Source of the DNA: Embleya scabrispora
Lineage (GTDB): Bacteria > Actinomycetota > Actinomycetes > Streptomycetales > Streptomycetaceae
Assembly: GCF_002024165.1 (NCBI RefSeq)
Contig: NZ_MWQN01000005.1
Location: forward strand, 248,001-312,000
Length of the DNA stretch: 64,000 bases
Reading direction: 5' to 3'
A model generated the notes under the pieces. It was not told where the DNA came from, did not search any database, and saw only the letters and a program-made list of their open reading frames with translations. The position numbers and the translations under genes were made by a program. Of this stretch, positions 8,844 to 51,618 are shown piece after piece (positions within the stretch are counted from its first letter, which is position 1; the number at the start of each line of letters is the position of its first letter).

Positions 8844-10258
8844 GCCTGCAAGGTAGAGGTGATCGCTTCCCGGAGGGTGACGGTCTCGGGGACTTGCGCG
8901 TGCCGACTGGCGAATCCGGCGAGTTCGCGAAGGTCTTCGGCCGTTCTGCGGGAGGTCAGTCCGCCGCCCGTTTCGAGTGCCTTGTGTCCGATCGATGCCG
9001 CTTCCCGCGGGTCGCCCGTGCGCATGACGAGTGAGGCGAGTTTGGTGCCGGAGATGGTCTTGGACCGGACGAACTGCGGTTTGTGCGTGCGCACGGCGGT
9101 GCGGAAGCGCTCCTGCGCGTCCGCTGGGTCGCGGCCCCGGAGAATGACGAGGTCGAACAGCGCGTGTGCGGTGTCGCCGTTGTGCTGGGCCTCGTCGTAG
9201 TACGCCATTAACGGATGGGTGTCGTCGGTGAGCCGTCCGGGGACGAAGGCGTCGTCGGCGGCGCCCACGGCGGCGAGGGCTTCTCGGACGTGGCCCATCC
9301 GTCCGTGGGCCCGGGCTCGGGCGGTGTGCAGCATCGCGCGTGCGTTGGCGGGCAGGCGATCGGCGTGGGTGAGGCCTCGCTCGGCGTGTGCGAGGCCGGT
9401 TTCGGCGTCGCCGATCCAAACGGCCTGACGTGCGAGGTAGGAGTAGGCCTTCGCCCTCAGGAGCCAGTGATCGCCGACCTCGGCACACTCCACTGCGAGC
9501 CCGAACGCGCTGCGCGCCTGCTCGTGGCGGCACATGTCGAATTGGGTGGCTCCCGCGACCAGACCCAGTCGGGCAACGGCGGCCAGGAATGCGGAGCGAA
9601 GGTGCACCGGACAGTCGGCCGCGAGGAGGCCGACGGCCCACCGGATGCAGTGGCTTGCGAGGAGTTCGAGGACTCCTCCACCGCCGTGGGTGTTGTCCCA
9701 GCGGTGGAGCACGTCGGCGAGTTCCGTCAGTTGACCGATCTCCTGTGGGGTGATTCGCGAGGGAGTCGATGGTGGAACGGCGGGTGAGAGGAGAGGATTG
9801 AGTTTCGGCGGGGCGAGGCCGCCTATGGCGCCCCAGGTATCGGTGGCGAGGAATACACGACGTTCCACTTCGGAGCTCCCGGTCGGCGATGGTTCGCGTC
9901 CTTCCAGGATGCCCCTCGGTGTACCGGGGTGAGTCGTGGGCCTGGCCGAAGCGAGTCGGTCCTCGCCGCGGTCGAACGCGGGCGCTGCGAGGACGCCGGA
10001 TGGGGAGCCGAACAGCTCGACGGCCCGCACGCCGAACATGTACTCGAGGATTCTTCGTGTGTCGTTGTGGGGCAGGGACTTGATGTCGCCGGCCATCCAG
10101 CGTTCGAAGGTGCGGCGCGCAACTGTCACGCGGTGAAGGCGTGGTTCGCGTTCGCGGCCTGCGAGCGCGTCCCGGGCGTTGCGGAACTTCGCGTCGAAGG
10201 TCTCGTAGGCGTTCCAGCCGTTCGCCAATACCAGCGTGCGCAGGCGGGTGGTTCGCAT
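8840..10258 (-). CDS. Transcriptional regulator: divergent HTH plus TPR region (module 2)
   Basis: 472 aa. N-terminal domain shared with three neighbours (LRTLVLANGWNAYETFDAKF, FERWMAGDIKSLP, RRILEYMFG). A low-complexity Pro/Arg linker around residues 90-150 is followed by TPR-like helices (SYLARQAVWIGDAETGLAHA). Start ATG 10258 has a clear AAGGAGAGG. The stop overlaps the phosphotransferase start. Close in architecture to SARP-like TPR regulators but with a different N-terminal domain. Regulation of the coupled kinase gene is inferred from the layout only. Confidence 0.75.
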   Translation of the reverse strand: MRTTRLRTLVLANGWNAYETFDAKFRNARDALAGREREPRLHRVTVARRTFERWMAGDIKSLPHNDTRRILEYMFGVRAVELFGSPSGVLAAPAFDRGEDRLASARPTTHPGTPRGILEGREPSPTGSSEVERRVFLATDTWGAIGGLAPPKLNPLLSPAVPPSTPSRITPQEIGQLTELADVLHRWDNTHGGGGVLELLASHCIRWAVGLLAADCPVHLRSAFLAAVARLGLVAGATQFDMCRHEQARSAFGLAVECAEVGDHWLLRAKAYSYLARQAVWIGDAETGLAHAERGLTHADRLPANARAMLHTARARAHGRMGHVREALAAVGAADDAFVPGRLTDDTHPLMAYYDEAQHNGDTAHALFDLVILRGRDPADAQERFRTAVRTHKPQFVRSKTISGTKLASLVMRTGDPREAASIGHKALETGGGLTSRRTAEDLRELAGFASRHAQVPETVTLREAITSTLQA

Positions 10259-10445
10259 GAATCCTCTCCTTCCCCGGGGACCCGTGGCAGCCCCCTTGCC
10301 CGGAGGACGTGGACGGCTCGCGATGGGCGAGGTTGCGACACCGGTGCCGAGGCGGGGCGAGGCCGGTGGTCCGGGCCGGACCGAAGAACGGGGGTCGGGA
10401 AGCCGGGCGCCTGGATTCGGCCCCCGGCGGCTGCGTTGCCTGCGG

Positions 10446-10670
10446 TCAGGTGGTCAGGTGGTCGAACTCGCCTTCCTTGATGCTTTGGAACAGGCAGGCG
10501 ATCTCTTCCACGGTCCACACGGTCGGCGGTGTGCTCGGGTCCGCGTCGTCGCGCAGGAGGACCCAGGGCCCGGACCGGGCCAGCTCCGGGCAGTTTCCCT
10601 GGGTGCTGAGGGCGGACTTGCGCCAGGTCAGGGCGTCGAGGTCGAACGCGGAGGGCGAGGGCTTGATCAT
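10446..10670 (-). CDS. DUF397 protein
   Basis: 74 aa. Typical DUF397 pattern: LTWRKSALSTQGNCPELA, VLLRDDADPSTPP, then a tryptophan-containing segment and FQSIKEGEFDH. Such proteins pair with XRE/DUF5753 regulators in actinomycetes and some pairs behave like toxin-antitoxin systems. Start ATG 10670 would overlap the ancestral stop of the XRE gene (ATGA), but the XRE frame is now shifted and no longer stops there. Confidence 0.85.
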   Translation of the reverse strand: MIKPSPSAFDLDALTWRKSALSTQGNCPELARSGPWVLLRDDADPSTPPTVWTVEEIACLFQSIKEGEFDHLTT

Positions 10671-11556
10671 TTCGGGAACTCCCGGAGTATGTCGGCGAGA
10701 AGGTCGCGGGTCTCCTCGGGGTGAGGGCCCGGTTGTTCCACATGTCGTCGAACGCCTCGACGTACACGTCCACGTCGGCGGGCGACTCGAAGAAGACGGA
10801 TCTGCGTTCGAGTTCCGCCCACACCGCCCGACGCTGGGTGTTCGGGAACTCCATGAGCATGAACGGGCCGGTCATGCCCGGATGGAAGCCGGTGGCGATC
10901 GGTAGGACGCGGATGGTGTTGAGGGGGTCGTGCGACGAGGTGAGCAACGCGTCGATCTGTTCGCGCATCACGTCGGGTTCGACGCCGGGGAAGCGGAGGG
11001 TCGATTCCTCGACGAGCGCTTCGAAGCGTCGGATCTCACCGTCGCGTACGTCGCGTTGACGTCTCATGCGCACGTCGACGAGTGCTTTGACCTCGTCGGG
11101 TTTGATGCCCAGTCGGCTGCCCGTCACGACCCTTTCGGCATATGCCCGCGTCTGCAGCCGTCCCTGGATCACGCGGGGCTCGTAGTTGCGGAGCACGTTG
11201 GCCATGCGTTCGAGTTTGAGGAATCCGTCGAATCCCATCGGGACGAGCAGGTCCGCGGCGCCCTTCCACCACTTCGGTCTGCGTTGCTGTGCGACGGCGG
11301 CGGCGTCCGCCTCCATAAGGGCCAGCACATGGGCGCGGTCGCGGTCGTTTGCCTGATAGAGGCCGAAGAGACGCTCGGCCAGGGCGGGGCGCAGTTGCCC
11401 CTCTGCGTTCTCCAACCGGCTGAGCCGGGGGGCGTCGATCCCGAGTTCGTGTGCGGCCTCGGTCAGTGTCAGCCCGGCCAGGGTCCGCAACTGCTTGATC
11501 AGTTCGCCGAGTTCGATCCGAGCGATGGACGCGGGCGACGCCTTGGTGTGAGGCAT
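10667..11556 (-). CDS. XRE-family regulator with DUF5753 domain, frameshifted near its C-terminus
   Basis: N-terminal HTH (LIKQLRTLAGLTLTEAAHEL, RLSRLENAEGQLRP) and a DUF5753 region (VIQGRLQTRAYAERVVTG, MTGPFMLMEFPN, FDDMWNNRALTP). After ALTP the frame continues as RRPATFSP, whereas adding one base in the C-run at 10718-10721 restores ALTPEETRDLLADIL and a TGA overlapping the DUF397 ATG. The end given here is that ancestral stop; as read, the frame continues to 10126 through DUF397 in another frame. The change affects only about the last 20 residues, so function may survive. It could also be a sequencing error. Start ATG 11556 has only a weak ribosome-binding site. Confidence 0.75.
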
Positions 11557-11728
11557 GTCCGTCAGTGTGGCGGCTGCGAGGGTTCCGCGACAACACGAGC
11601 CGGTCGCAATTTGTCGGTACGTGTTGCTGTGACTGCCATGGAGGAGCATTCTGGCCGGATCACGTTCCGCGTGGGGAGCCTGACAACCGGTGACACGAGG
11701 CCGTGCGTGCTCAGGAGGATGGACCGCC
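11557..11728. promoter_or_regulatory. Divergent intergenic region between XRE gene and truncated regulator
   Basis: 172 bp separating a minus-strand and a plus-strand regulator gene, so it must hold both promoters. No confident -35/-10 pair or operator repeat was found by eye. Confidence 0.3.
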
Positions 11729-12127
11729 GTGAGATCGACCCTTTTCCGCAGCATCGTTCTCGAGCGACGGTGGAGCCACTTCACCACGTTCGATGCCAAA
11801 TTCGCCCGGGCGCGGGACACGCTCGCCCGGGCCGAACGTGATTCGCGACTGCGCCGAGTCGTTGTCTCCCGGGGGGTGTTCGAGGGGTGGCTGACGGGTG
11901 ATTTCGAGGCACGTCCGCCGGTCGGTACATGCAGGGTTCTTGAACATCTTCTCGGTGTGCCGGCCGGTGAACTGTTCGGTTCTCGCTCCGGCGGGCCGAG
12001 CCTCGGTCGTTTCGGCGGGGCCACCGTGTCGCACCAGCCGGCCGGGGACGATCGGTCCGATCGTCGGTCCGGTCCTGCGTGTCGGGAGCCTGTCGTCGAC
12101 GGTTTGCTGCCCGGAGGACCGTCGTAG
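11729..12127 (+). CDS. Truncated regulator with only the conserved N-terminal domain
   Basis: 132 aa. Residues 1-85 match the N-terminal domain of the three longer regulators here (RSTLFRSIVLERRW, FDAKFARARDTLARAERD, FEGWLTGDFEARPP, CRVLEHLLG). The remainder is a short Gly/Ser/Arg tail and then TAG, so the TPR half is missing. GTG 11729 follows AGGAGG by 10 nt. It may be a free DNA-binding domain that competes with the full regulators, or a gene in decay. The full-length regulator starts about 40 bp downstream in the same direction. Confidence 0.6.
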   Translation: MRSTLFRSIVLERRWSHFTTFDAKFARARDTLARAERDSRLRRVVVSRGVFEGWLTGDFEARPPVGTCRVLEHLLGVPAGELFGSRSGGPSLGRFGGATVSHQPAGDDRSDRRSGPACREPVVDGLLPGGPS

Positions 12128-12168
12128 ATCAGCGTGCGGGTACGTGCGAGGAATGGGGAGGAACGGTG

Positions 12169-13443
12169 GTGCGCGACACGCTCTTTCGCGAGATGGTGTT
12201 CGTTCGGGGGTGGAGTCAGTTCTCCACTTTCGATGTGAAGTTCGCGCTGGCCCGGGATGCGTTGGCCGCCCGCGAGCGTGAACCGGCTCTGCATCGGGTG
12301 TCGCTGTCCCGGCGGACCTTCGAACGATGGATGGCGGGGGAGGTCCGCCCCCAGGCGCAGTCGCGTCGTGTCCTCGAACACATGCTGGGCCGGCCCGGCT
12401 CGGCCCTGTTCGCAACGCGCACCCCTCGCCCGGACGAGGCGACTCTTTATCAAGTCGGAAACGCGGACGGTTCACCGGGCCGTGCCGGGGTCGATTCCGC
12501 CGACCTGTCTTTCGCCGAGGCCATGGACGCCTTTCGGCGAGCGGATCGACGGCTGGGCGCCGCCCAGGTGTATCCGCATGTGCTGCGGTATCTGCGATCC
12601 GACGTCGCGCCCGTGCTGTTCGACGCCTGCGAAGCCGACGCGCAGTCGGCGTTTCGAGCCGCGGTGGTGCTGACCGACATGGCGGGTTGGATGGCCCACG
12701 ATCTCGGTCGTGACGATCTTGCGGGGGCACATTTTGCGAAGGCCTTGGCGTTCGCCCGATCGGTACCCGACGCCACGTTGTCGGCGAACGTGCTGGCCGC
12801 GATGAGCCATCTCGCGCTGGAGGGTGACCGGCCGGGGGAGGCCGCCGACCTGGCCGCGTCGGCACTCACGATGCTGGACACCAAAGAACGCCCACCGGCA
12901 TTGTCCGCGCGCTTGCTCGCGATGCGGGCGCGCGCTCTCGCCCGCGGCCGTGACCGCGCGGGCGCCTACGGCGCGATGGCCGAGGCTCGACGCGAACTCG
13001 GCCGGACGCAGGCCGGCCCGCCACCGTGGTGGGTCGCCCCGTTCGACGAGGGCGCGCTCGCGGGGGAGACGGCTTTGATGCTGCGCGACCTGCGTCTGTT
13101 CGGCGCCGCCGACCTCGAGGCGCAGCGCGCGGTGCGACTGCGGGATCGACAGCCCGGTCGCGGGCATGCTTTCGGCACCATCCGCCTCGCACGCATTCTC
13201 GTCGACCGGCGGGAGCCGGAACGGGCCTCCGCGGTGGGGAGCGACATCTTGGACAGCTGCCTGACGATCGGCTCCGTCAGGATCACTCGTGACCTGACCG
13301 GTCTCGCCCGATCCCTCGATTCCTACCGTGACCTGCGCGTCGTCGCCGAATTCCGCGACGGTGTCGCGAGGGTGAACCGTCAACGCGGGCGCCTTCTGCG
13401 GCCTCTGCTGCCGGCCGTCGCACCGGCGGGCCCGCGCCCGTGA
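12169..13443 (+). CDS. Transcriptional regulator: divergent HTH plus TPR region, coupled to a NUDIX gene
   Basis: 424 aa. N-terminal domain as in its neighbours (RDTLFREMVFVRGW, FERWMAGEVRP, RRVLEHMLG), then helical repeats with TPR character (ALAFARSVPDATLSANVLAA, AADLAASALTMLD). GTG 12166 and GTG 12169 are adjacent; 12169 has 7-nt spacing from GGAGG and matches the start of the paralog. The TGA overlaps the GTG of the NUDIX gene. The three full-length copies are each coupled to a small-molecule enzyme, here a NUDIX hydrolase instead of a kinase. Confidence 0.8.
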   Translation: MRDTLFREMVFVRGWSQFSTFDVKFALARDALAAREREPALHRVSLSRRTFERWMAGEVRPQAQSRRVLEHMLGRPGSALFATRTPRPDEATLYQVGNADGSPGRAGVDSADLSFAEAMDAFRRADRRLGAAQVYPHVLRYLRSDVAPVLFDACEADAQSAFRAAVVLTDMAGWMAHDLGRDDLAGAHFAKALAFARSVPDATLSANVLAAMSHLALEGDRPGEAADLAASALTMLDTKERPPALSARLLAMRARALARGRDRAGAYGAMAEARRELGRTQAGPPPWWVAPFDEGALAGETALMLRDLRLFGAADLEAQRAVRLRDRQPGRGHAFGTIRLARILVDRREPERASAVGSDILDSCLTIGSVRITRDLTGLARSLDSYRDLRVVAEFRDGVARVNRQRGRLLRPLLPAVAPAGPRP

Positions 13444-27131: not shown

Positions 27132-27986
27132 TCAGAGGGAACGGGCCCGCGCGTGCATCAGCTCGCGCGACTCCCGCTCGTTCAGGGCGCGTTCACACAG
27201 CTGGTCGAACGCGGTCGCGTAGCCGCGCAACTCGTCGGGCTTCTCCAGGTACACGACGTTGAGCAGCGATTCCACCATCACCAGTCGGCTGCCGTCGCGA
27301 AGCTCGAACAGCGAGAACGGGCCGTCCGGCCCCAGGTTGAACCCGGAGTCGAACGGGACGATCCGCACGCTGACGTTCGGCCGCTGCGACGCCTCGACGA
27401 CGTGGTCGAGTTGCCCGCGCATGAGCGCGGCATCCGCACTGGTGCGCAGCGCGCTCTCGCCCACGACCGCGGTCAGGGCGAAGTCGTCCCGGTCCAGGAC
27501 GCGGCTGCGCCCCAGGCGCAACTGCACGTGCGCGTCCAGGCGTTCGGTGTCGCCGTGGTGGAGGTCGCGACCGGCGGCGAGGATGCCGCGGATGTAGGGC
27601 TCGGTCTGCAGCACGGCGGGGAACAGGCTCGGTTCCCATTTGGACAGCCGGGCGGTGTCGGCCTCCAGGCCGAGGAGGTCCTCGTGGGTGGAGCCCAGGT
27701 GGGAGCGGTAGGTGTGCCACCAGTTCCTCTCGCCGCCGGTGTCGACCATGTCCGCCAGTGCCAGGCCCTGCGGCGAGTCCCGATCGACCCCGTAGACGTC
27801 CAGGAGGGCCCAGAGCAGGGCGAGTTCGACCTTGCCCTCGCCGGACTCGATGCGGCTGATCCGCGCGTTCCGGTAGCCGAGGATCGCCCCGACCTGCTCC
27901 TGTTTCAGGCCCGCGCCCTCGCGGAGCCCCTTCAGCCTGGCGCCCAGGCGTCGCCTGCGCAGCGACGGCTGCCTGGCCTCGGTCAT
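27132..27986 (-). CDS. XRE-family regulator with DUF5753 domain
   Basis: 284 aa. HTH: LKGLREGAGLKQEQVGAILG and ARISRIESGEGKV. DUF5753: SLFPAVLQTEPYIRGIL, VVGESALRTS, VSVRIVPFDSGFNLGPDGPF. Intact, unlike the copy at 10667-11556. Its upstream region (28053-28093) carries two copies of GAATATATGCG that may be its operator. Paired with the DUF397 gene downstream. Confidence 0.92.
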   Translation of the reverse strand: MTEARQPSLRRRRLGARLKGLREGAGLKQEQVGAILGYRNARISRIESGEGKVELALLWALLDVYGVDRDSPQGLALADMVDTGGERNWWHTYRSHLGSTHEDLLGLEADTARLSKWEPSLFPAVLQTEPYIRGILAAGRDLHHGDTERLDAHVQLRLGRSRVLDRDDFALTAVVGESALRTSADAALMRGQLDHVVEASQRPNVSVRIVPFDSGFNLGPDGPFSLFELRDGSRLVMVESLLNVVYLEKPDELRGYATAFDQLCERALNERESRELMHARARSL

Positions 27987-28052
27987 CGTCTCAACCCCGG
28001 TGGTCGGGGGCACGGGCGTGCCCGAGTGCATGATACGCGCAACCCCAGAACT

Positions 28053-28093
28053 GAATATATGCGTTCGGGGAGTTGACGAAACGAATATATGCG
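28053..28093. promoter_or_regulatory. Direct repeat GAATATATGCG x2, putative operator/promoter region
   Basis: GAATATATGCG occurs at 28053-28063 and again at 28083-28093, 30 bp start to start (about three helical turns). It lies in one of the most AT-rich patches of the window, between the divergent XRE gene (minus) and the start of the + strand cluster. Same-face spacing fits cooperative binding by an XRE dimer. The region probably also contains promoters for both directions. Confidence 0.55.
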
Positions 28094-28257
28094 GTCCACA
28101 GTGTTGAGCGGGACGACAACCCCCGACACCCCACAGCGGGGCGGCAGGAAGCGTCGCCCGCACACCGGAGACCGAGACGACCGGGCCATCCCCACACGCC
28201 CGACCGACCGGCGCCGACACCCCACCAACACCCGCCCCACACCGAGGACACGCACCC

Positions 28258-28557
28258 ATGGCACACCAACAGCCGTTCAAGGCCGGAGACCTCGTCCAGG
28301 CCACCGCGGCGGGCACCCCACCGCGCACCGTCCACCTGCGCCCGGACCGCGTGCCCTGGCCCAGCAGCCAGGCGGGAACGCTCGTCGTCTGCGACGCACG
28401 ATCGGCGATCGTGGTCCACGCGAACTCGCTGCGCTGCGTCGAAGGCGACGCCGCCCCTCGCGGCGCGGCCCGTCCGCCCGACGTGACTCGACGGGCCGTC
28501 ACCGGGGAGCTGCACCACGGCGGTACGTCCGTCGACGATCGCGACGGCGAACCGTGA
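28258..28557 (+). CDS. Small protein of unknown function
   Basis: 99 aa. The first ~65 residues could form a small beta barrel (FKAGDLVQATAAG, AGTLVVCDARSAIVVHANSL); the rest is polar. ATG 28258 has GAGGA 10 nt upstream. It overlaps the downstream HATPase gene by GTGA. First gene of the + strand cluster. It is too acidic and barrel-like to call a RiPP precursor. Confidence 0.6.
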   Translation: MAHQQPFKAGDLVQATAAGTPPRTVHLRPDRVPWPSSQAGTLVVCDARSAIVVHANSLRCVEGDAAPRGAARPPDVTRRAVTGELHHGGTSVDDRDGEP

Positions 28558-29117
28558 TCACCACACCGCGGGACTCAGGGACCGTCGTGCCGGGCCGATC
28601 CAAGCGGTTTCCCGGCCGAGGACGTTCGATCCTGTGCCTCACCGCCGGCAACACGCCCTCCGACGTCGGCGGCTCCCGCAACGTCGTGGCCGAGACGCTG
28701 AAAACCTGGAGCGCGCCCGAGGATGTGCGCGAGTGGGCCACGCTCGTCGTCAGTGAACTGCTCACCAACGCGATCGACCACGCTCGATGCGCGAGCGCGA
28801 TGGTGGTGCTGTTCGCCGGAGCGGACGAGTTCGTGATCGTCGTGGTCAACGACGGACTCCCTCCGACCCGTTCGCTGACCGAGGTCGATCCCGCCCGCGA
28901 CGACGCCGAGGGCGGACGCGGCCTGTTCCTGGTGGCCGCCACGAGCACACGCTTCGGCGCAACCCGTCGACTCGGCCGCACCATCGTGTGGGCCGGCCGC
29001 ACCGACCAACCGCCGCACACGCCCGCATGCCCCACGCCGCGCGACCGCCCCCGGCGATGCCGTGGTCCCCGCATCGGCCGTCGAACCCGCGGCCGAACGG
29101 GCGGCAACCGGCGGTAA
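28554..29117 (+). CDS. HATPase (anti-sigma/RsbW-like) protein
   Basis: 187 aa. VVSELLTNAIDHARC is the N-box, VVVNDGLPPTRS the G1-like loop and AEGGRGLFLVAATSTRFG the G2 region, as in Streptomyces regulatory GHKL kinases. The C-terminal 40 residues are Arg/Pro-rich. GTG 28554 overlaps the preceding stop. Probably a regulatory component; partner unseen. Confidence 0.8.
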   Translation: MITTPRDSGTVVPGRSKRFPGRGRSILCLTAGNTPSDVGGSRNVVAETLKTWSAPEDVREWATLVVSELLTNAIDHARCASAMVVLFAGADEFVIVVVNDGLPPTRSLTEVDPARDDAEGGRGLFLVAATSTRFGATRRLGRTIVWAGRTDQPPHTPACPTPRDRPRRCRGPRIGRRTRGRTGGNRR

Positions 29118-44878: not shown

Positions 44879-45944
44879 GCGTGGTCGGTGTATTCGTGGA
44901 TTGTCGGTGCGTCGTCGAGGACGACGCGAGGTTCTGCAGAGAAATGCGGCGAGGTCCGGTGACACGAATACGAACGCGTTCCGTGTGCCACCCGAGGCCG
45001 GCGCACACCGATCGACTCGCGCTCGTCGGCCCGGGGGAGGAAACACGGCACCACGGCGAGGCGTTGCGCGTACCGTTCGAGGATTCCGCGTCGCAGCAGG
45101 GGCGGATCGGCGACGCACGCGCCGGCGTGCCACGAGTTCGGTGATGGCTGCGATACGCGACGGCCGAAGAAGGAGCCTCCATCCTCGAAAGGGAACCGGC
45201 CGCCTTGCGGAACGGATCCGCAGAAATGGCCGACCTCGGGAAACCGCTGGGGAGGCGGACGTCACAACGTCGGCGAAATAACCAATACCGACATACTCCG
45301 CTGCGAACGCGACTGCGCCGCCCCTCGTCTTCGCCGCGGCACGGAACCCGGGAGGCCGTGTCGTCTCCCCATACCGGGAAGCGTTCTTCGGGGCGCCACG
45401 CGTACACAGGAAGGACAGGACAAGCACAGCACGGGTTGAGGCCCCCGATCGTTCACTCGATACCTTTCGGCACGATCGCCCCCACGGCCATGGGAACCGC
45501 TTCCCGAACGGCTGAGGGCGGCAACAGAAGCCCGCGCGCACCGAATCGACGCCCCGGTGGACACGGCTCGGCCTGTCCCAACATGAAGGTGCAACAGCCG
45601 GCGTCGACAACGATGTTCGGGCAGCGCCACGTCCGCCCGTGATCGCGACGCCGCCTCAAGCGACGCGTCCCCTCCATGGGCGTAATGGCCGGTGGCATGA
45701 GTACGAGCGGTGGGGCGGACGGTTCTTTCGATTCACCGAGAACGGGCGTTCGATCCACGCCCTACGGCTCGACACCGCCCGCGCAAGAAACCCGCTGCGA
45801 AGGGGTTGCGATCCGCCTTGCGCCAAGTGACGTTGCGCAATCCTCATGACAAGCGCCTGCGGATCCGATAGGAACATCCATGGAAAGGGCCTGTGGGTCA
45901 GGTCCGTTGTAGGATCTTCGAACTGCGAGACAAAGGGGACGGGT
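44879..45944. other. Non-coding or decayed region, about 1.07 kb
   Basis: No frame shows consistent codon bias or a recognisable domain; composition is visibly lower in GC than neighbouring genes. Several short frames (for example 45639-45830, 45453-45758) have no ribosome-binding site and no family signal. The last ~100 bp must carry the lsr2 promoter. Possibly an eroded insertion. Confidence 0.45.
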
Positions 45945-46280
45945 ATGGCTCGCCGCGTGATTACAGAATTCGTCGACGACATCGACGGCAAGACGGGCGC
46001 AGGAGTCCAAACACACACGTTCGCGCTGGACGGTGTCCACTACGAGATCGACCTCGGGGAAGACACCTTTCAAACGCTGCTGGATCGGCTCGGTCCGTAT
46101 TTCGGAGCCGCTCGGAAGATCGGATCGCGTTCGCACGCATCCGGCAAGAGGCCCCGTGCGGCGGCCTTGGGACCCAACCCGGCCGACGTGCGGGAATGGG
46201 CCAAGAAACACGGAATCGACGTCAACGCCCGGGGCCGCGTGCCCAACGACGTCATTCAGCAGTACCAGACCGAGAACTGA
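45945..46280 (+). CDS. lsr2: Lsr2-family nucleoid-associated protein
   Basis: 111 aa. N-terminal dimerisation domain (VITEFVDDIDGKTGAG, HTFALDGVHYEIDLGEDTF, TLLDRLGPYFGAARK), basic linker (GKRPRAAALG) and C-terminal DNA-binding domain with the RGR clamp (REWAKKHGIDVNARGRVPND). Lsr2 binds AT-rich DNA and silences acquired genes. ATG 45945 follows AAAGGGGA. Probably a paralog of the main chromosomal lsr2, located beside AT-richer accessory DNA. Confidence 0.93.
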   Translation: MARRVITEFVDDIDGKTGAGVQTHTFALDGVHYEIDLGEDTFQTLLDRLGPYFGAARKIGSRSHASGKRPRAAALGPNPADVREWAKKHGIDVNARGRVPNDVIQQYQTEN

Positions 46281-46625: not shown

Positions 46626-48443
46626 TCACGTGAGCATCCGTTTTGCCGCAGACCGGAGTTGGGTGTCCATCGGTGTTTCGGTGGGCGGTGCGAAGATGTC
46701 GTCGGTCAGCACGCGACGGTCGGTGGTCGCCCACTGCAGGAGGCGCGGTCGCAGGCGGGACGGGTAGGGCCGCCCGATCGCCAGGAGGATTTCGAGCGTG
46801 GCCAGGGGAAGGGTTTCGGCGAGAGCGGTCAGCACCGGAACCGCTGCGGAGCGGTCGCCGGTGATGCGCCAGTGGGCTTCGGCGGCGCGCAGTCGCGTCC
46901 ATTCGTGGCCGTTGTGGAGGAAGCCCTCGATCAGGGGGAGCAGCGGCGCGGCCGTCGGCCCCAGACGCCCCGCTTCCTCCAGGCACCGTGCGTCGTCCTC
47001 GAGGCGATGTGCCAACAGGTCGAGCGCCGGGGCCGGGTCGGCGCCGAGGCGGGCGGCGGCCACCGTTGCGGCGGAGGCGAGTTCGCCGGGGTTTCCGCGG
47101 GAGTTGAGGGCGAGCAGGCGGATCAGTTCGGCGTCGCGGATGCCCCAGTCGCCGAATCGTCGTACCAGCGCCACGGTGGGGCGTCGACGCAGCACGTTCT
47201 TGAGGTCCCCCAGGAGGGCGCGGGCGGCGTGGGGGGTCAAGGTGGCGAGGAGTTCGTCGGGACATGCGTTGCGGTGGCGCAGCGCGAGGCGTTGGTGGTC
47301 GAGGTCTTGGGTGCGGGTGGCGAGCGCGACCAGTGGCCTGGGCTCGGGGTCGGGGACGGTGGTGACCAGGCGTTCGTCGCCGAGGAGGCCGAGGGCGAGT
47401 TGGGCGAGTTCGGCCGTGGTGGTGTCGGCGAGCGCGTGCGGCATGAGGTTGTCGCCGAGCGAAGGGTCTGGGTCGATGGTCCCGGGAACCCAGGAGATGA
47501 CGGCACAGAGGAGCTCGGACAGGTCCCAGGGCGTGGTCGGGTGGGGGAGGGCGGCGGCGAGGAGGGCGAGGGTGTCGTGCTCGCGGTCGCGCCAGTGGGT
47601 GGAGAGTTCGTGGGCTCGGCGTGCACCGCGGCCTTCGGCGTTGCCCTGCGCGATCCAGGCGCGGGCCACCGTCGCGGTGGCGTCCGGGTCGTGGGCCAGG
47701 ACGGCGGCGACGCGGGAGTCGGTGTCGCCGATCCCGGGAAAGAACTCGAGCCGGTTGACCGCCAGTTCGCTGTCGCCCCCGGCTTCCGCCAGGACCGCGA
47801 CCAGATCCGCCGGATACGGGGCCTGTTCCTGTTCCAGGAGCGCCAGGGCGGCGACTGCGCGGACGGCCGCGACCGGGTCGATGAGCGCTTCATGGAGGCG
47901 CCGCGTGCGGGCCGGCGGGTCGGGATCGATGCGGGTGAGGACGATCAGGGCCTCCGCGCGGACGGCGGGGGGTGCGTCCGTCGCGTAGGTCGCCGCAAGT
48001 TCGCGCGTCGCCGCCGGCAGGCTCTGCGCGCTCGCGCGGCGGGCCACGCGCACCGCGCTGCGGCGCACCCGCGGGTCGTCGTCGCCGAGCAGGTGCAACA
48101 GGCCGGCGACTTCCACCCCGACCGCCGCGTGCCCCTCTTCCTCGTCGCCGGCCCACGGCGTGGGGCCTTGGCCCCCCGCGCCCGCGAGCAACGCGAGCAC
48201 ACTCGCTCGTCCGTGAGGGGCCTGCACGGCGGCGTGGGCGAGGAAGGGCACGGCCGCCACGGTCGCCGGATACACCGTTCCCTGGTGCAACACATGGTTG
48301 AACAGCTCGCTCAGGGCCGTGTCGGCGCGATCCGCGTCGTCGCCGTACAGGGCCCGTATCCGGTCCGGGACGTCGGTGCCGTCCCCGTAGGCGTGGTACA
48401 GCGACTGCCAGTCGATCGTGTCGAGTTCCTCGGGTGATCTCAC
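46626..48443 (-). CDS. HEAT-repeat protein
   Basis: 605 aa from GTG 48443. The opening ELDTIDWQSLYHAYGDGTD, then RALYGDDADRADTALSELFN and VLHQGTVYPATVAAVPFLAH is characteristic of a Streptomyces HEAT-repeat family. Then ~20 helical repeats follow (DDDPRVRRSAVRVARRASA, AEALIVLTRIDPDPPA). No enzymatic motif. The ribosome-binding site is weak. The long open frame upstream of GTG is not conserved-looking. Likely a protein-interaction scaffold. Confidence 0.8.
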   Translation of the reverse strand: MRSPEELDTIDWQSLYHAYGDGTDVPDRIRALYGDDADRADTALSELFNHVLHQGTVYPATVAAVPFLAHAAVQAPHGRASVLALLAGAGGQGPTPWAGDEEEGHAAVGVEVAGLLHLLGDDDPRVRRSAVRVARRASAQSLPAATRELAATYATDAPPAVRAEALIVLTRIDPDPPARTRRLHEALIDPVAAVRAVAALALLEQEQAPYPADLVAVLAEAGGDSELAVNRLEFFPGIGDTDSRVAAVLAHDPDATATVARAWIAQGNAEGRGARRAHELSTHWRDREHDTLALLAAALPHPTTPWDLSELLCAVISWVPGTIDPDPSLGDNLMPHALADTTTAELAQLALGLLGDERLVTTVPDPEPRPLVALATRTQDLDHQRLALRHRNACPDELLATLTPHAARALLGDLKNVLRRRPTVALVRRFGDWGIRDAELIRLLALNSRGNPGELASAATVAAARLGADPAPALDLLAHRLEDDARCLEEAGRLGPTAAPLLPLIEGFLHNGHEWTRLRAAEAHWRITGDRSAAVPVLTALAETLPLATLEILLAIGRPYPSRLRPRLLQWATTDRRVLTDDIFAPPTETPMDTQLRSAAKRMLT

Positions 48444-48693
48444 GCCGGCGAACAGTAGCGCCCCGGACCGCCATCCCAGGGCGCACGGATGACCGCAACG
48501 AAGAGGCGCGGTGCGGGCGTTGCCTCCAGGCCTGCGGAGCCTGATAACGGGACGCCTGGTGGCGCCGTTGTGGTCCGCAGGCGCCACGGCGAACCACAAC
48601 GTGGGCCTGTTTGCCCGACAGCCTGGCCCGGACGACCCCATATCCGTACAGTGATTCTTGGCATACTCGGTGTGCCCGAATTGGGGAGGGCGT

Positions 48694-48834
48694 ATGCGTT
48701 TCCAGGTTGTCATCGCGAACGAGAGCCAGGATCCGGACAAGACCGACCATCCCGGTCAGCCGTGGACACCCCCGCAGAATCCGCCGTCGCCCGACGGCAC
48801 CACTCCGGACGGCTCCGGCAAGCACAAGAAGTGA
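48694..48834 (+). CDS. 46-aa peptide, candidate RiPP precursor for the adjacent methyltransferase
   Basis: Starts ATG 48694 right after a near-perfect GGGGAGGG and ends in a TGA that overlaps the methyltransferase GTG (GTGA). N-terminal MRFQVVIANESQDPD could be a leader. The C-terminal part is Pro/Asp/Gly-rich (TPPQNPPSPDGTTPDGSG) with two Asp-Gly pairs and a Lys-His-Lys-Lys end. No Cys. Asp-Gly is the classic site of aspartimide/isoaspartate formation, the chemistry of PIMT-type enzymes. It is too short for routine gene calling. Confidence 0.75.
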   Translation: MRFQVVIANESQDPDKTDHPGQPWTPPQNPPSPDGTTPDGSGKHKK

Positions 48835-50015
48835 CCCTCGCCGCAAACCACTTGCGCCCCGGCCGAGCACGACTGCACCGCGCGCTCCTGGAGTCCGCGG
48901 CCATGCCCTCGGCCTGGTCGTCCGCATTCGAAGCGATCGACCGCGCTTGGTTTTTGCCCCGGGTGATGTGGCCCTTCGACATGACCGGCTCCGCCAGCAC
49001 CGTCCGCGACCGTGACACGGACCCCGATGCCTGGTACGAGGCCGCCGACGCGAACGTCCCCATCACCACCCAGTGGGACGACGGCCGACACACCGGCCCC
49101 GCCCCCGGCCGCGTACCGACCTCCTCGGCGTCCATGCCCAGCGTCGTCGCGTCCATGCTCGGCGATCTCGACGCGCAGCCTGGCCACAACGTGTTGGAGA
49201 TCGGCACCGGCACCGGCTGGAATGCCGCCCTGCTCACCCACCGCCTCGGCGCCGGCCACGTCACCACCGTCGAAATCGACCCGGCCGTCGCCGCCGACGC
49301 TGAAAAGGCCCTGCACACCCACGGCCTGCACCCCACCGTGATTACCGACGACGGCCTCCTCGGCCATCCGCCGTCGGCGCCCTACGATCGCATCATCGCC
49401 ACCGCGGGCCTGCGCCGGGTTCCCCACGCGTGGGTGGAACAGACACGCCCGGGCGGAGTGATCGTCGCCCCGTGGGGGACCCCGATGACCAACGCCGACC
49501 ACATCGTGCGCCTGATCGTCGCCGACGACGGTCGCAGCGCGTCGGGTCGGTTCACCACACCGGTCGAGTTCATGAAAATCCGCTCCCAGCGCCCGCGACA
49601 CTTGGACCAGGCCGCGTACCTGCCCGACGGATTCCCCGGCGACGCCACCACGAGCACCACGACGCTGACCGCACGAAAAGCGGGTTTCGAGGATCCGCTT
49701 CGACATCCGGTCATGACGGCCGCCTCCCTGCTCGTTACCGACTGCGCGCTCCTGAGCGACCGTCGGGAGACGGCGGTCAGTGTCTGGCTGTACGGACTCA
49801 CCGACCGCTCCTGGGCAGCCGCGATCCTGCACGACACGCATCCGAACGGCGTGGTGTACCAAAGCGGCCCTCGACGCCTGTGGGACGAGATCGAAGCCGC
49901 CCACCGCCGATGGACCACGATGGGCCGCCCGGCCTCCGACCGCTTCGGCCTCACCGTCGACGCCGACGGCGAACACCCGTGGCTCGACACCCCCACCAAC
50001 CGACTTCACGGATAG
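48831..50015 (+). CDS. PIMT-like protein O-methyltransferase with C-terminal extension
   Basis: 394 aa. Core: TSSASMPSVVASML (the substrate-binding Ser-containing motif of protein-L-isoaspartate methyltransferases), HNVLEIGTGTGWNAALLTHR (SAM motif I, ~119-138), VTTVEIDPAVA (motif Post-I), YDRIIATAGLRRVPHAW and GGVIVAPWG. The ~150-residue C-terminal extension is typical of the RiPP-tailoring versions and absent from repair PIMTs. GTG 48831 overlaps the 46-aa gene. By family precedent it would methylate an Asp side chain of that peptide and lead to aspartimide or isoaspartate. Confidence 0.85.
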   Translation: MTLAANHLRPGRARLHRALLESAAMPSAWSSAFEAIDRAWFLPRVMWPFDMTGSASTVRDRDTDPDAWYEAADANVPITTQWDDGRHTGPAPGRVPTSSASMPSVVASMLGDLDAQPGHNVLEIGTGTGWNAALLTHRLGAGHVTTVEIDPAVAADAEKALHTHGLHPTVITDDGLLGHPPSAPYDRIIATAGLRRVPHAWVEQTRPGGVIVAPWGTPMTNADHIVRLIVADDGRSASGRFTTPVEFMKIRSQRPRHLDQAAYLPDGFPGDATTSTTTLTARKAGFEDPLRHPVMTAASLLVTDCALLSDRRETAVSVWLYGLTDRSWAAAILHDTHPNGVVYQSGPRRLWDEIEAAHRRWTTMGRPASDRFGLTVDADGEHPWLDTPTNRLHG

Positions 50016-50817: not shown

Positions 50818-51618
50818 GTGGAACGGATCGCCTGGGATGCCCTGTCGGTACGCACGCGCACGGCCGTGCACGCGCTGACCGGACGGATCCACTCGGCCCG
50901 GCCCGTGGAAGGAGGACACCACAGCGCGCTCGCGGTGCACCTGGACACCACAGACGGGCCGGTGTTTGTCAAAGGGATACGCGCAGACCACCCGCTGGCT
51001 TCGGCGCAACGACGCGAGGCACGAATCGGTGAGAGCCTGGCAGGTGTCGGGCCCCGGGTGCTATGGCAGTTGCTCGTCGACGGCTGGGATCTGGTGGGAT
51101 TCGAGTTCGTGCACGGACGTCACGCCCAGTATCACGAGCACTCCCGTGACCTGAACCTGCTGGCCGACACGCTCACCGTCCTGGCGAACCTTCCCTTGCC
51201 GGCCGCCGAGGTGCCATCCGCAGCGACGCGGTGGGCGGTCCGCCCCGAAGACACGGACCTTCGTGCGGCATTACAGGGGCACACGCTGTGCCACGCCGAC
51301 TTCAATCCGGAGAACATCCTCGTGACTCCGGACAGGCTCGTGCTGGTGGACTGGGGATGGGCGGTACGCGGACCGGCGTGGCTGGACCCGGCACTGGTTG
51401 TCATCCGTCTCATTGCCACCGGCGGCCAAACACCGCCAACCGCACAATCGTGGGCGATGCGGATGCCGGCGTGGCGTGGAGTGCCCGATCGAGTGATCAC
51501 CGACTTTGCCAAGGCCGAGGCCCGGCTGTGGGACGACATCGCCGAGCGCCGCCCGGAGCCCTGGTCGCGCGCGCTGGCCGACGCCGCGCACGCCTGGGTT
51601 GCCCACCGTATGTCCTGA
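50818..51618 (+). CDS. Phosphotransferase (APH-like kinase)
   Basis: 266 aa. GPVFVKGIRADHP gives the ATP-site Lys. LCHADFNPENILV gives H159, D161, N166. LVLVDWGWAVRG gives D178. All key residues are present. Related to the kinase/pseudokinase pair at 22-24 kb (GPVFCKGVRVDRP; WAMRMPAWRG against WAMHVPAFAK). GTG 50818 has AAGGGA. Monocistronic as far as seen. Confidence 0.85.
   Translation: MERIAWDALSVRTRTAVHALTGRIHSARPVEGGHHSALAVHLDTTDGPVFVKGIRADHPLASAQRREARIGESLAGVGPRVLWQLLVDGWDLVGFEFVHGRHAQYHEHSRDLNLLADTLTVLANLPLPAAEVPSAATRWAVRPEDTDLRAALQGHTLCHADFNPENILVTPDRLVLVDWGWAVRGPAWLDPALVVIRLIATGGQTPPTAQSWAMRMPAWRGVPDRVITDFAKAEARLWDDIAERRPEPWSRALADAAHAWVAHRMS

Follow-up and report, generated by a model that had tools for sequence, protein, structure and literature searches.

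A two-gene cassette of Embleya scabrispora as a predicted type I pamtide (imiditide) system

At positions 48694 to 50015 of a 64,000-nucleotide stretch of the Embleya scabrispora genome (contig NZ_MWQN01000005.1, positions 248,001 to 312,000; termed here the window), a gene of 46 codons runs directly into a gene for a methyltransferase of the PIMT type. The question raised by this arrangement is whether the small gene encodes a substrate of the enzyme and, if so, which residue would be modified and to what end. The initial annotation, made from the DNA itself, had proposed a candidate RiPP precursor accompanied by a PIMT homologue that, as in pamtides, stands alone. The co-conservation of the two genes supports that proposal, and we conclude, with a probability that we put at about 0.88, that the two genes form a type I pamtide (imiditide) cassette with a predicted modification at Asp34.

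The peptide gene and its overlapping methyltransferase

The peptide gene (48694..48834, + strand), homologues of which precede PAMT genes elsewhere, was read directly from the window sequence; it starts with ATG at 48694, ends with TGA at 48832–48834 and encodes a predicted type I pamtide precursor of 46 aa, MRFQVVIANESQDPDKTDHPGQPWTPPQNPPSPDGTTPDGSGKHKK. The Shine–Dalgarno sequence GGGGAGG (48683..48689, +), 4 nt from the ATG, bears out the excellent ribosome-binding site that had been noted; in the sister species GGGGGAG precedes the peptide ATG. The TGA stop is overlapped, as GTGA at 48831–48834, by the GTG start of the methyltransferase gene (48831–48833), again as originally described. 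Further upstream lies a −10-like hexamer, TACAGT (TANNNT; 48647..48652, +), recognized from an upstream alignment of G000 and G003 and a motif scan of relatives, which may serve as part of a promoter. The stretch TCCGTACAGTGAT around this hexamer is identical in the sister species in that alignment; in the motif scan it was exact in the two sister species only, a few other loci giving loose matches with 2–3 mismatches, and our claim is therefore restricted to the −10-like box.

The division of the peptide into a proline-poor N-terminal half and a C-terminal half rich in proline, aspartate and glycine, recognized in the initial annotation, is confirmed in the sequence; overall the peptide contains 19.6% Pro, 10.9% Asp and 8.7% Gly and has a predicted pI of 6.0. 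Residues 1–18 (48694..48747, +) form a variable, leader-like part that is not conserved in relatives, and residues 19–46 (48748..48831, +), HPGQPWTPPQNPPSPDGTTPDGSGKHKK, form a conserved core with a basic C terminus, as judged from distinct homologous cores (54 aligned; 76 in the final set). An acidic stretch, ESQDPDKTD, precedes the core and GKHKK forms the C-terminal end, giving the peptide an acidic N-terminal and a basic C-terminal feature. Both Asp-Gly pairs that had been pointed out are present, D34-G35 and D39-G40, with the refinement that they are unequal, the first being near-invariant among homologues. The peptide contains no cysteine, and the two CXXCXGXG motifs of type II pamtides are therefore absent.

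The methyltransferase ORF (48831..50015, +; stop at 50015) encodes a protein of 394 aa, which sequence, Pfam, NCBIfam and structural model together identify as a PAMT-type methyltransferase. Its PIMT/PCMT core (approximately residues 1–255; 48831..49595, +) contains the Pfam domain PF01135 (PCMT; E 1.2e-25, residues 99–233) and, at residues 122–135, the SAM-binding-type stretch LEIGTGTGWNAALL. The enzyme also matched NCBIfam TIGR04188, the family of ATP-grasp peptide maturase methyltransferases, over residues 26–382 (E 2.5e-95) at 319.9 bits, below the curated cut-off of 380; the FxLD lanthipeptide methyltransferase model TIGR04364, with a cut-off of 320, scored 121 bits, and over residues 96–214 only.

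In the AlphaFold model of the enzyme (mean pLDDT 91.7, pTM 0.91; built from 17 sequences), a C-terminal domain occupies approximately residues 256–394 (49596..50012, +), and DSSP assigns to it, in order, a strand, a helix, four strands, a helix and two strands. The top Foldseek match to the model was the Thermotoga PIMT 1dl5 (E 1.9e-20). With VIA-align, 2yxe_B was superposed on model residues 7–255 (Z 28.7; 208 residues at 1.6 Å) and 1dl5_A on residues 11–390 (Z 28.0; 311 residues at 6.4 Å), the high r.m.s.d. of the latter probably reflecting a domain shift in the model. Among the VIA-align matches listed, 1dl5 alone reaches residue 390; most other PIMT rows stop at about residue 255, and most rows barely test the model outside residues 6–253. 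The enzyme is like Thermotoga maritima PIMT in combining a PIMT core with a C-terminal domain, aligned over model residues 11–390, but the two share about 20% identity. The PF01135 match and the 1dl5 fold uphold the earlier assignment to the PIMT type, and the C-terminal extension is indeed present, although it begins near residue 255 and is about 140 residues long, not about 150 as first estimated. In the accessible text of Lee et al. (PMC10787088), this C-terminal domain is described as a common feature of PIMT homologues associated with RiPPs, present also in 1dl5. Within it lies WTTMGRP (residues 361–367; 49911..49931, +), an instance of the WXXXGXP motif named, near the C terminus, in the accessible part of a 2026 review (PMC13001092); across 17 aligned homologues P367 does not vary, and W361 and G365 hardly vary. 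The acidic substrate-binding loop named for NmaM was also considered: the C-terminal hairpin reads DADGE here and is non-acidic in L010 and L011, and we make no claim for it.

Conservation of the pair and the candidate aspartate

Two of the four genomes of the source genus (the source genome included) hold the peptide gene, in both cases overlapping the enzyme gene; the pair of the sister species (L069/L082) overlaps likewise, with a peptide 64% and an enzyme 77% identical. Comparison with the sister species gave a dN of 0.08 and a dS of 0.31 for the core (few changes in all, 5 synonymous and 5 non-synonymous), 0.16 and 0.58 for the enzyme, and 0.70 and 0.80, a ratio near 1, for the N-terminal part of the peptide (again small counts). 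From these substitution rates, the core and the enzyme are under purifying selection, and the N-terminal part looks unconstrained.

Beyond the genus, enzyme matches at E<=1e-85 occur in 73 of 200 genomes of the family, and at most of 137 related loci a small Pro/Gly/Asp-rich ORF with a Shine–Dalgarno sequence, chosen by composition score, lies upstream of the enzyme gene. No recognizable precursor was found in the upstream frames read before the related enzyme genes L003, L070 and L071, which are PAMT genes in three species of the source genus; parts of their upstream frames look similar. In the reverse search, a profile of 24 cores run against 394 Streptomycetaceae genomes identified 97 places in 75 genomes, and a methyltransferase match lay directly downstream of the core in 90 of these (53 of 60 places read as loci, at E<=1e-8 for the methyltransferase, and 37 matched by hand from coordinates, whose enzyme-search loci, L091 included, contain the core). 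In genomes outside the initial enzyme search, taken from the numbering as handles G200 and up, the count was 21 of 23 places. At seven places (L239, L243, L249, L257, L260, L263 and L268) there was no methyltransferase match nearby. The best enzyme segment covered fewer than 260 of the 394 residues at 10 of the 53 loci (L212, L214, L225, L240, L242, L244, L252, L255, L259 and L267), so that some enzymes are broken or cut by the end of the stretch. Co-occurrence in other genomes had been put forward in the initial annotation as a test, with the lack of a homologous small ORF counting against the proposal; the 90 cores found directly before a methyltransferase are such ORFs, and the proposal is therefore not refuted by this test.

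The type of core also follows the enzyme. On a tree of 158 distinct enzyme loci, obtained by a quick search after rows with low query coverage or a stop had been dropped, core type changed 7 times against a shuffled mean of 52.8, and none of 500 shuffles gave so low a value; the labels came from a loose regular expression (L019 is probably wrongly labelled PGxPW and L215 wrongly omitted), and the tree is taken to show clustering only.

The source genome itself contains 19 matches to the enzyme, of which 8 are near full length. Upstream of six of these, the window's own enzyme among them, lies a pamtide-like precursor (L001, L002, L004, L005, L006 and L007); no precursor was found upstream of L003, and at L008 the enzyme follows an ORF whose C terminus appeared, by eye, to be ATP-grasp-ligase-like. 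The paralogues L002 and L004–L007 include G000:C8:18300-19382, C1:6621391-6622443, C5:114964-116019, C1:3038002-3039102 and C6:36213-37277, a large paralogous pamtide set in one organism; L006 has in addition an XRE/DUF5753 ORF upstream. In other genomes, a second PAMT-family ORF was seen at L191 (G017), 2.4 kb downstream of the start of the first, and L020 is the Thermobifida fusca PAMT locus, with an upstream ORF of 89 aa that is presumably the fuscimiditide precursor.

Which aspartate would be modified can be approached through natural variation in the core. P31, P33, G35 and P38 are invariant in the 54-core alignment, P33 and G35 flanking D34 in 54/54 cores. Position 34, encoded here at 48793..48795 (+) within PSPDG, is Asp in 52/54 aligned cores and in 73 of the 76 distinct cores of the final set, which is limited to cores with an adjacent enzyme match at E<=1e-20. 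At the second Asp-Gly (Asp39 codon at 48808..48810, +), position 39 is Asp in 7/54 cores and position 41 in 50/54; residue 41 is Ser here and Pro in the sister species. The basic end of the core is widely kept, with H44 in 48/54 cores and K or R in 52/54 at position 45 and in 52/54 at position 46. A later DG pair is present in 69/76 cores, and all seven cores that lack it keep D34, two of them (L261 and L264) ending a few residues past PSPDGG. As D34 is near-invariant and is retained in cores without the second Asp-Gly, we predict it as the site; on the pattern of conservation it is most likely the modified aspartate, and a second modification at the later Asp-Gly is possible.

The exceptions at position 34 are Gly in L102 (G024), Asn in L010 (Streptomyces lichenis) and Glu in L240. 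At L010 and L102 the enzyme match spans residues 9–390 despite the non-Asp residue; at L240 the methyltransferase match lies about 23 nt after the core stop and starts at residue 133 of 394, which indicates a truncated enzyme. In the S. lichenis precursor (L010:3813-3977), Asn-Gly (codon AAT) replaces the conserved Asp-Gly. Asn-Gly is able to give the same imide spontaneously, and it could perhaps be that at L010 the imide forms without the first step of the enzyme. The precursors of L261, L264 and L205 lack the basic HRK tail and stop shortly beyond PDGG; in the published type I pair the C-terminal residues were required. A sister subgroup, GGxPAPI (L131, L133, L116, L123 and L135), has Asn-Gly (GNGG) where others have GDG, followed by HRK, HRR or RRK.

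These data can be set against two other readings of the pair. If the methyltransferase simply repaired proteins, as ordinary PIMTs do, and the small ORF before it were incidental, the PIMT/PCMT domain would be accounted for, but not the joint occurrence of core and methyltransferase in 90 of 97 places, the clustering of core type on the enzyme tree, a C-terminal domain which among the PIMT matches listed 1dl5 alone covers up to residue 390, or the presence, in a single genome, of 8 paralogues of near full length; co-conservation and the enzyme tree contradict this reading, which we regard as hardly credible and have dropped. It is quite unlikely, though less so, that Asp39, or both aspartates, would be modified instead. 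The sister species retains D39-G40, and the frequency of a later DG pair fits such a reading, but Asp is found at position 39 itself in only 7/54 cores, the seven cores without a second DG still hold D34, and the type I pair SpaA–SpaM is reported, in the accessible text of PMC10787088, to be modified at the conserved Asp.

Class assignment and predicted chemistry

Type I precursors are given in the accessible text of PMC10787088 as about 45 aa long, with 16.8% Pro, 10.2% Asp and 17.3% Gly. The window peptide, at 46 aa, lies near the class means for Pro and Asp, with 8.7% Gly against a mean of 17.3%, and the enzyme is a PIMT homologue of more than 300 aa (394) with the conserved C-terminal domain and WXXXGXP. 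On these sequence-level features the pair is an added member of the class; as that class has already been described, with 1,414 type I members by the count in the accessible part of the review (PMC13001092), the pair is not new as a kind. Like SpaA–SpaM of Streptomyces sparsogenes and NmaA–NmaM of Nonomuraea maritima, it comprises two genes, a Pro/Asp/Gly-rich precursor of about 45 aa without a cysteine motif, with a conserved Asp near Pro and Gly and a basic C terminus, and a PIMT homologue of more than 300 aa that carries both the C-terminal domain and WXXXGXP. Unlike type I pamtides at large, it has the core of a subgroup, [HL]PGxPWxPP..PSPDGxxPxGDGxHRK, and a lower Gly content, SpaA and NmaA being compared by description only; in the source genus the second Asp is at position 39, not 41. 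The core strings were not found in a full-text literature search, which covered text without figures or supplements, and the subgroup may still be published.

The type II pamtides or cysimiditides (FcaA–FcaM) share the two-gene layout with a PAMT as the sole modifying enzyme, but differ from the window peptide in their CXXCXGXG motifs and cysteine. The group 13 graspetides (fuscimiditide, amycolimiditide and SsfA) have a homologous PAMT, and the best full-length family match of the present enzyme is TIGR04188, below its cut-off; in contrast to them, the scanned neighbours of the cassette include no ATP-grasp ligase, and a linear substrate is expected. A Pfam scan of five neighbouring window proteins returned a helicase, Lsr2, a weak HEAT match (below cut-off), APH and one protein without a match, and neither ATP-grasp nor LanB; the immediate neighbours, at 46626-48740 (weak HEAT) and 50818-51618 (APH), gave no match to the ATP-grasp ligase that would be expected beside a group 13 graspetide precursor. 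Tailoring of a graspetide or lanthipeptide was thus rejected for want of a partner enzyme among these five neighbours, and the pair appears, as had been suggested, to stand alone: the five neighbours show neither enzyme in Pfam, and no family other than the methyltransferase occurs in more than 7 of 21 neighbourhoods. Against the type I reading stand the Gly content of 8.7%, the non-Asp cores of L010 and L102 beside an enzyme, the 7 of 97 cores without an enzyme and the precursor-less L003, L070 and L071.

The characterized relatives, as described in the accessible parts of PMC10787088 and PMC13001092, form an Asp methyl ester in a SAM-dependent reaction, which converts spontaneously to an aspartimide and is hydrolysed to isoaspartate or aspartate; type I enzymes act on linear peptides, and the C-terminal residues matter. 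By analogy with these, our working model is that peptide and methyltransferase would be translated from one message and coupled through the GTGA overlap, and that the enzyme would bind the linear peptide by its Pro-rich core and basic C terminus, as in published type I pairs. It would then methylate one Asp side chain with S-adenosylmethionine, most likely Asp34 in PSPDG; the ester would close onto the next backbone amide, aided by the following Gly, to give an aspartimide, and this may slowly open to isoaspartate or aspartate. The pair, its co-conservation, the predicted fold of the enzyme and the conserved Asp are established by the present analysis; the chemistry would follow from the relatives.

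Genomic neighbourhood and possible roles

To what end the peptide would be modified is a separate question. In a set of 20 relatives of 16–20 kb and 22 kb of the window, with ORFs of at least about 90 aa, the methyltransferase family was present in 19/21 neighbourhoods (the ORF caller missed L197 and L202). No other family occurred in more than 7/21, and a conserved third gene was not found among ORFs of this size; the next families were XRE/DUF5753 in 7/21, a LysR-like family in 4 and an uncharacterized one in 4 (assigned by eye), and ten families were present in 2. ORF calling was crude (length and GC3 bias, minimum about 90 aa), so that small genes could be missed.

By profile search, 36 of 170 distinct enzyme loci have a same-strand ORF of the XRE/DUF5753 type whose end lies 420 nt or less before the enzyme match. 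The 170 are all tblastn matches at E<=1e-20, a few distant ones included; the figure of 36 is a lower bound, because 72 of the 170 have less than 1300 nt upstream. In 32 of the 36 the precursor ORF chosen lies between the two, starting 56–230 nt after the regulator. At 20 loci with long flanks the immediate upstream slot is occupied by XRE/DUF5753 in 5 (the L195 fusion counted), compared with 9 among the other ORFs, which number about 291 (Fisher p 9e-4; the control is rough and leaves window ORFs out of the denominator). At L193, L198, L204, L200, L209 and others, the regulator gene stands directly upstream of precursor and PAMT, which take the usual DUF397 slot. At L195:8519-9424 (G090), a single frame encodes HTH_31, DUF5753 (4–177 of 178) and then NAPWTPPEPSPDGQSPEGDGQHRK, and ends 24 nt before the enzyme match, which starts at residue 9; in its close relatives L193 and L198 regulator and precursor are separate. 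XRE–DUF397 pairs are known regulators in Streptomyces (accessible text of PMC10364602), genes for DUF397/DUF5753 proteins have been reported in the vicinity of the PIMT-containing group 13 graspetides (accessible text of PMC13097080), and DUF5753 regulators are reported with actinobacterial ATP-grasp loci (accessible text of PMC8939145); the words 'regulator', 'XRE' and 'DUF5753' are absent from the main texts of PMC10787088 and PMC13001092. The related loci thus resemble the XRE (DUF5753)–DUF397 pairs of Streptomyces (Scr1/Scr2 and others) in having a regulator just upstream, but differ in what comes next, a small gene for a pamtide precursor and then one for a PAMT. Taken together this suggests, without proving, that some pamtides act in regulation.

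The window cassette has no such partner: no XRE/DUF5753-like ORF was found over 20 kb on its upstream side or over 14 kb on its downstream side within the window, and the gene upstream is divergent, with weak HEAT-repeat matches, in place of a regulator on the same strand. For the window the regulatory reading is therefore an extrapolation. XRE/DUF5753-like ORFs occur in the window only at 10129-12471 and 27135-28574, both on the − strand and more than 20 kb from the cassette. A gene for the Lsr2 nucleoid-associated protein lies at 45846-46280 (+), about 2.4 kb upstream of the cassette.

Two views of the role of the product, both compatible with the type I chemistry, may then be weighed. In one, the aspartimide- or isoAsp-bearing peptide would act within the cell as ligand or partner of an XRE/DUF5753 regulator, taking over from the small DUF397 protein of known XRE–DUF397 pairs and switching the regulator, with pamtide cassettes in part regulatory and the L195 (G090) fusion a covalent version of the same partnership. 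The regulator just upstream in 36/170 loci with a precursor between in 32, the enrichment of the immediate upstream slot, the in-frame fusion of a core to the C terminus of an HTH_31 and DUF5753 protein and the DUF397/DUF5753 genes near PIMT-bearing group 13 graspetides (accessible text of PMC13097080) speak for it. Weighed against these are the window cassette itself, the 45 of 58 PGxPW-labelled loci with at least 1300 nt upstream that have no XRE/DUF5753 ORF within 420 nt (13/58 do; the label, a loose regular expression, is wrong in at least one row, L019), the general abundance of XRE/DUF5753 genes in Streptomyces and the chance that one fusion is a decaying deletion; we consider this view unlikely. 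In the other, a general protease would cut the core from its leader and an imide-bearing, antibacterial or membrane-active RiPP would be exported. A variable N-terminal part before a conserved core does resemble leader and core, and membrane interaction is proposed for charged imiditides in the accessible part of the review (PMC13001092), but the predicted pI of the peptide is 6.0, and of the three families found in more than 2/21 neighbourhoods (7, 4 and 4 loci; ORFs of at least about 90 aa) none is transporter- or protease-like. Export is a possibility of some substance, with the odds nevertheless against it. As the cassettes have no third gene family that generally accompanies them, we lean towards an intracellular or local signalling role over that of an exported antibiotic.

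If pamtide cassettes are indeed partly regulatory, that of E. scabrispora in the window would be a derivative that stands alone and acts on a regulator from another locus. The predicted type I pair adds to a RiPP class of no known function a subgroup defined by its core motif (PGxPW...PSPDG...HRK), in which the residue to be modified is predicted from natural variation. Work tying aspartimide to bioactivity is asked for in the accessible part of the 2026 review (PMC13001092), and the regulator neighbours, with one fusion of regulator and core, may offer a testable handle on the role of pamtide peptides.
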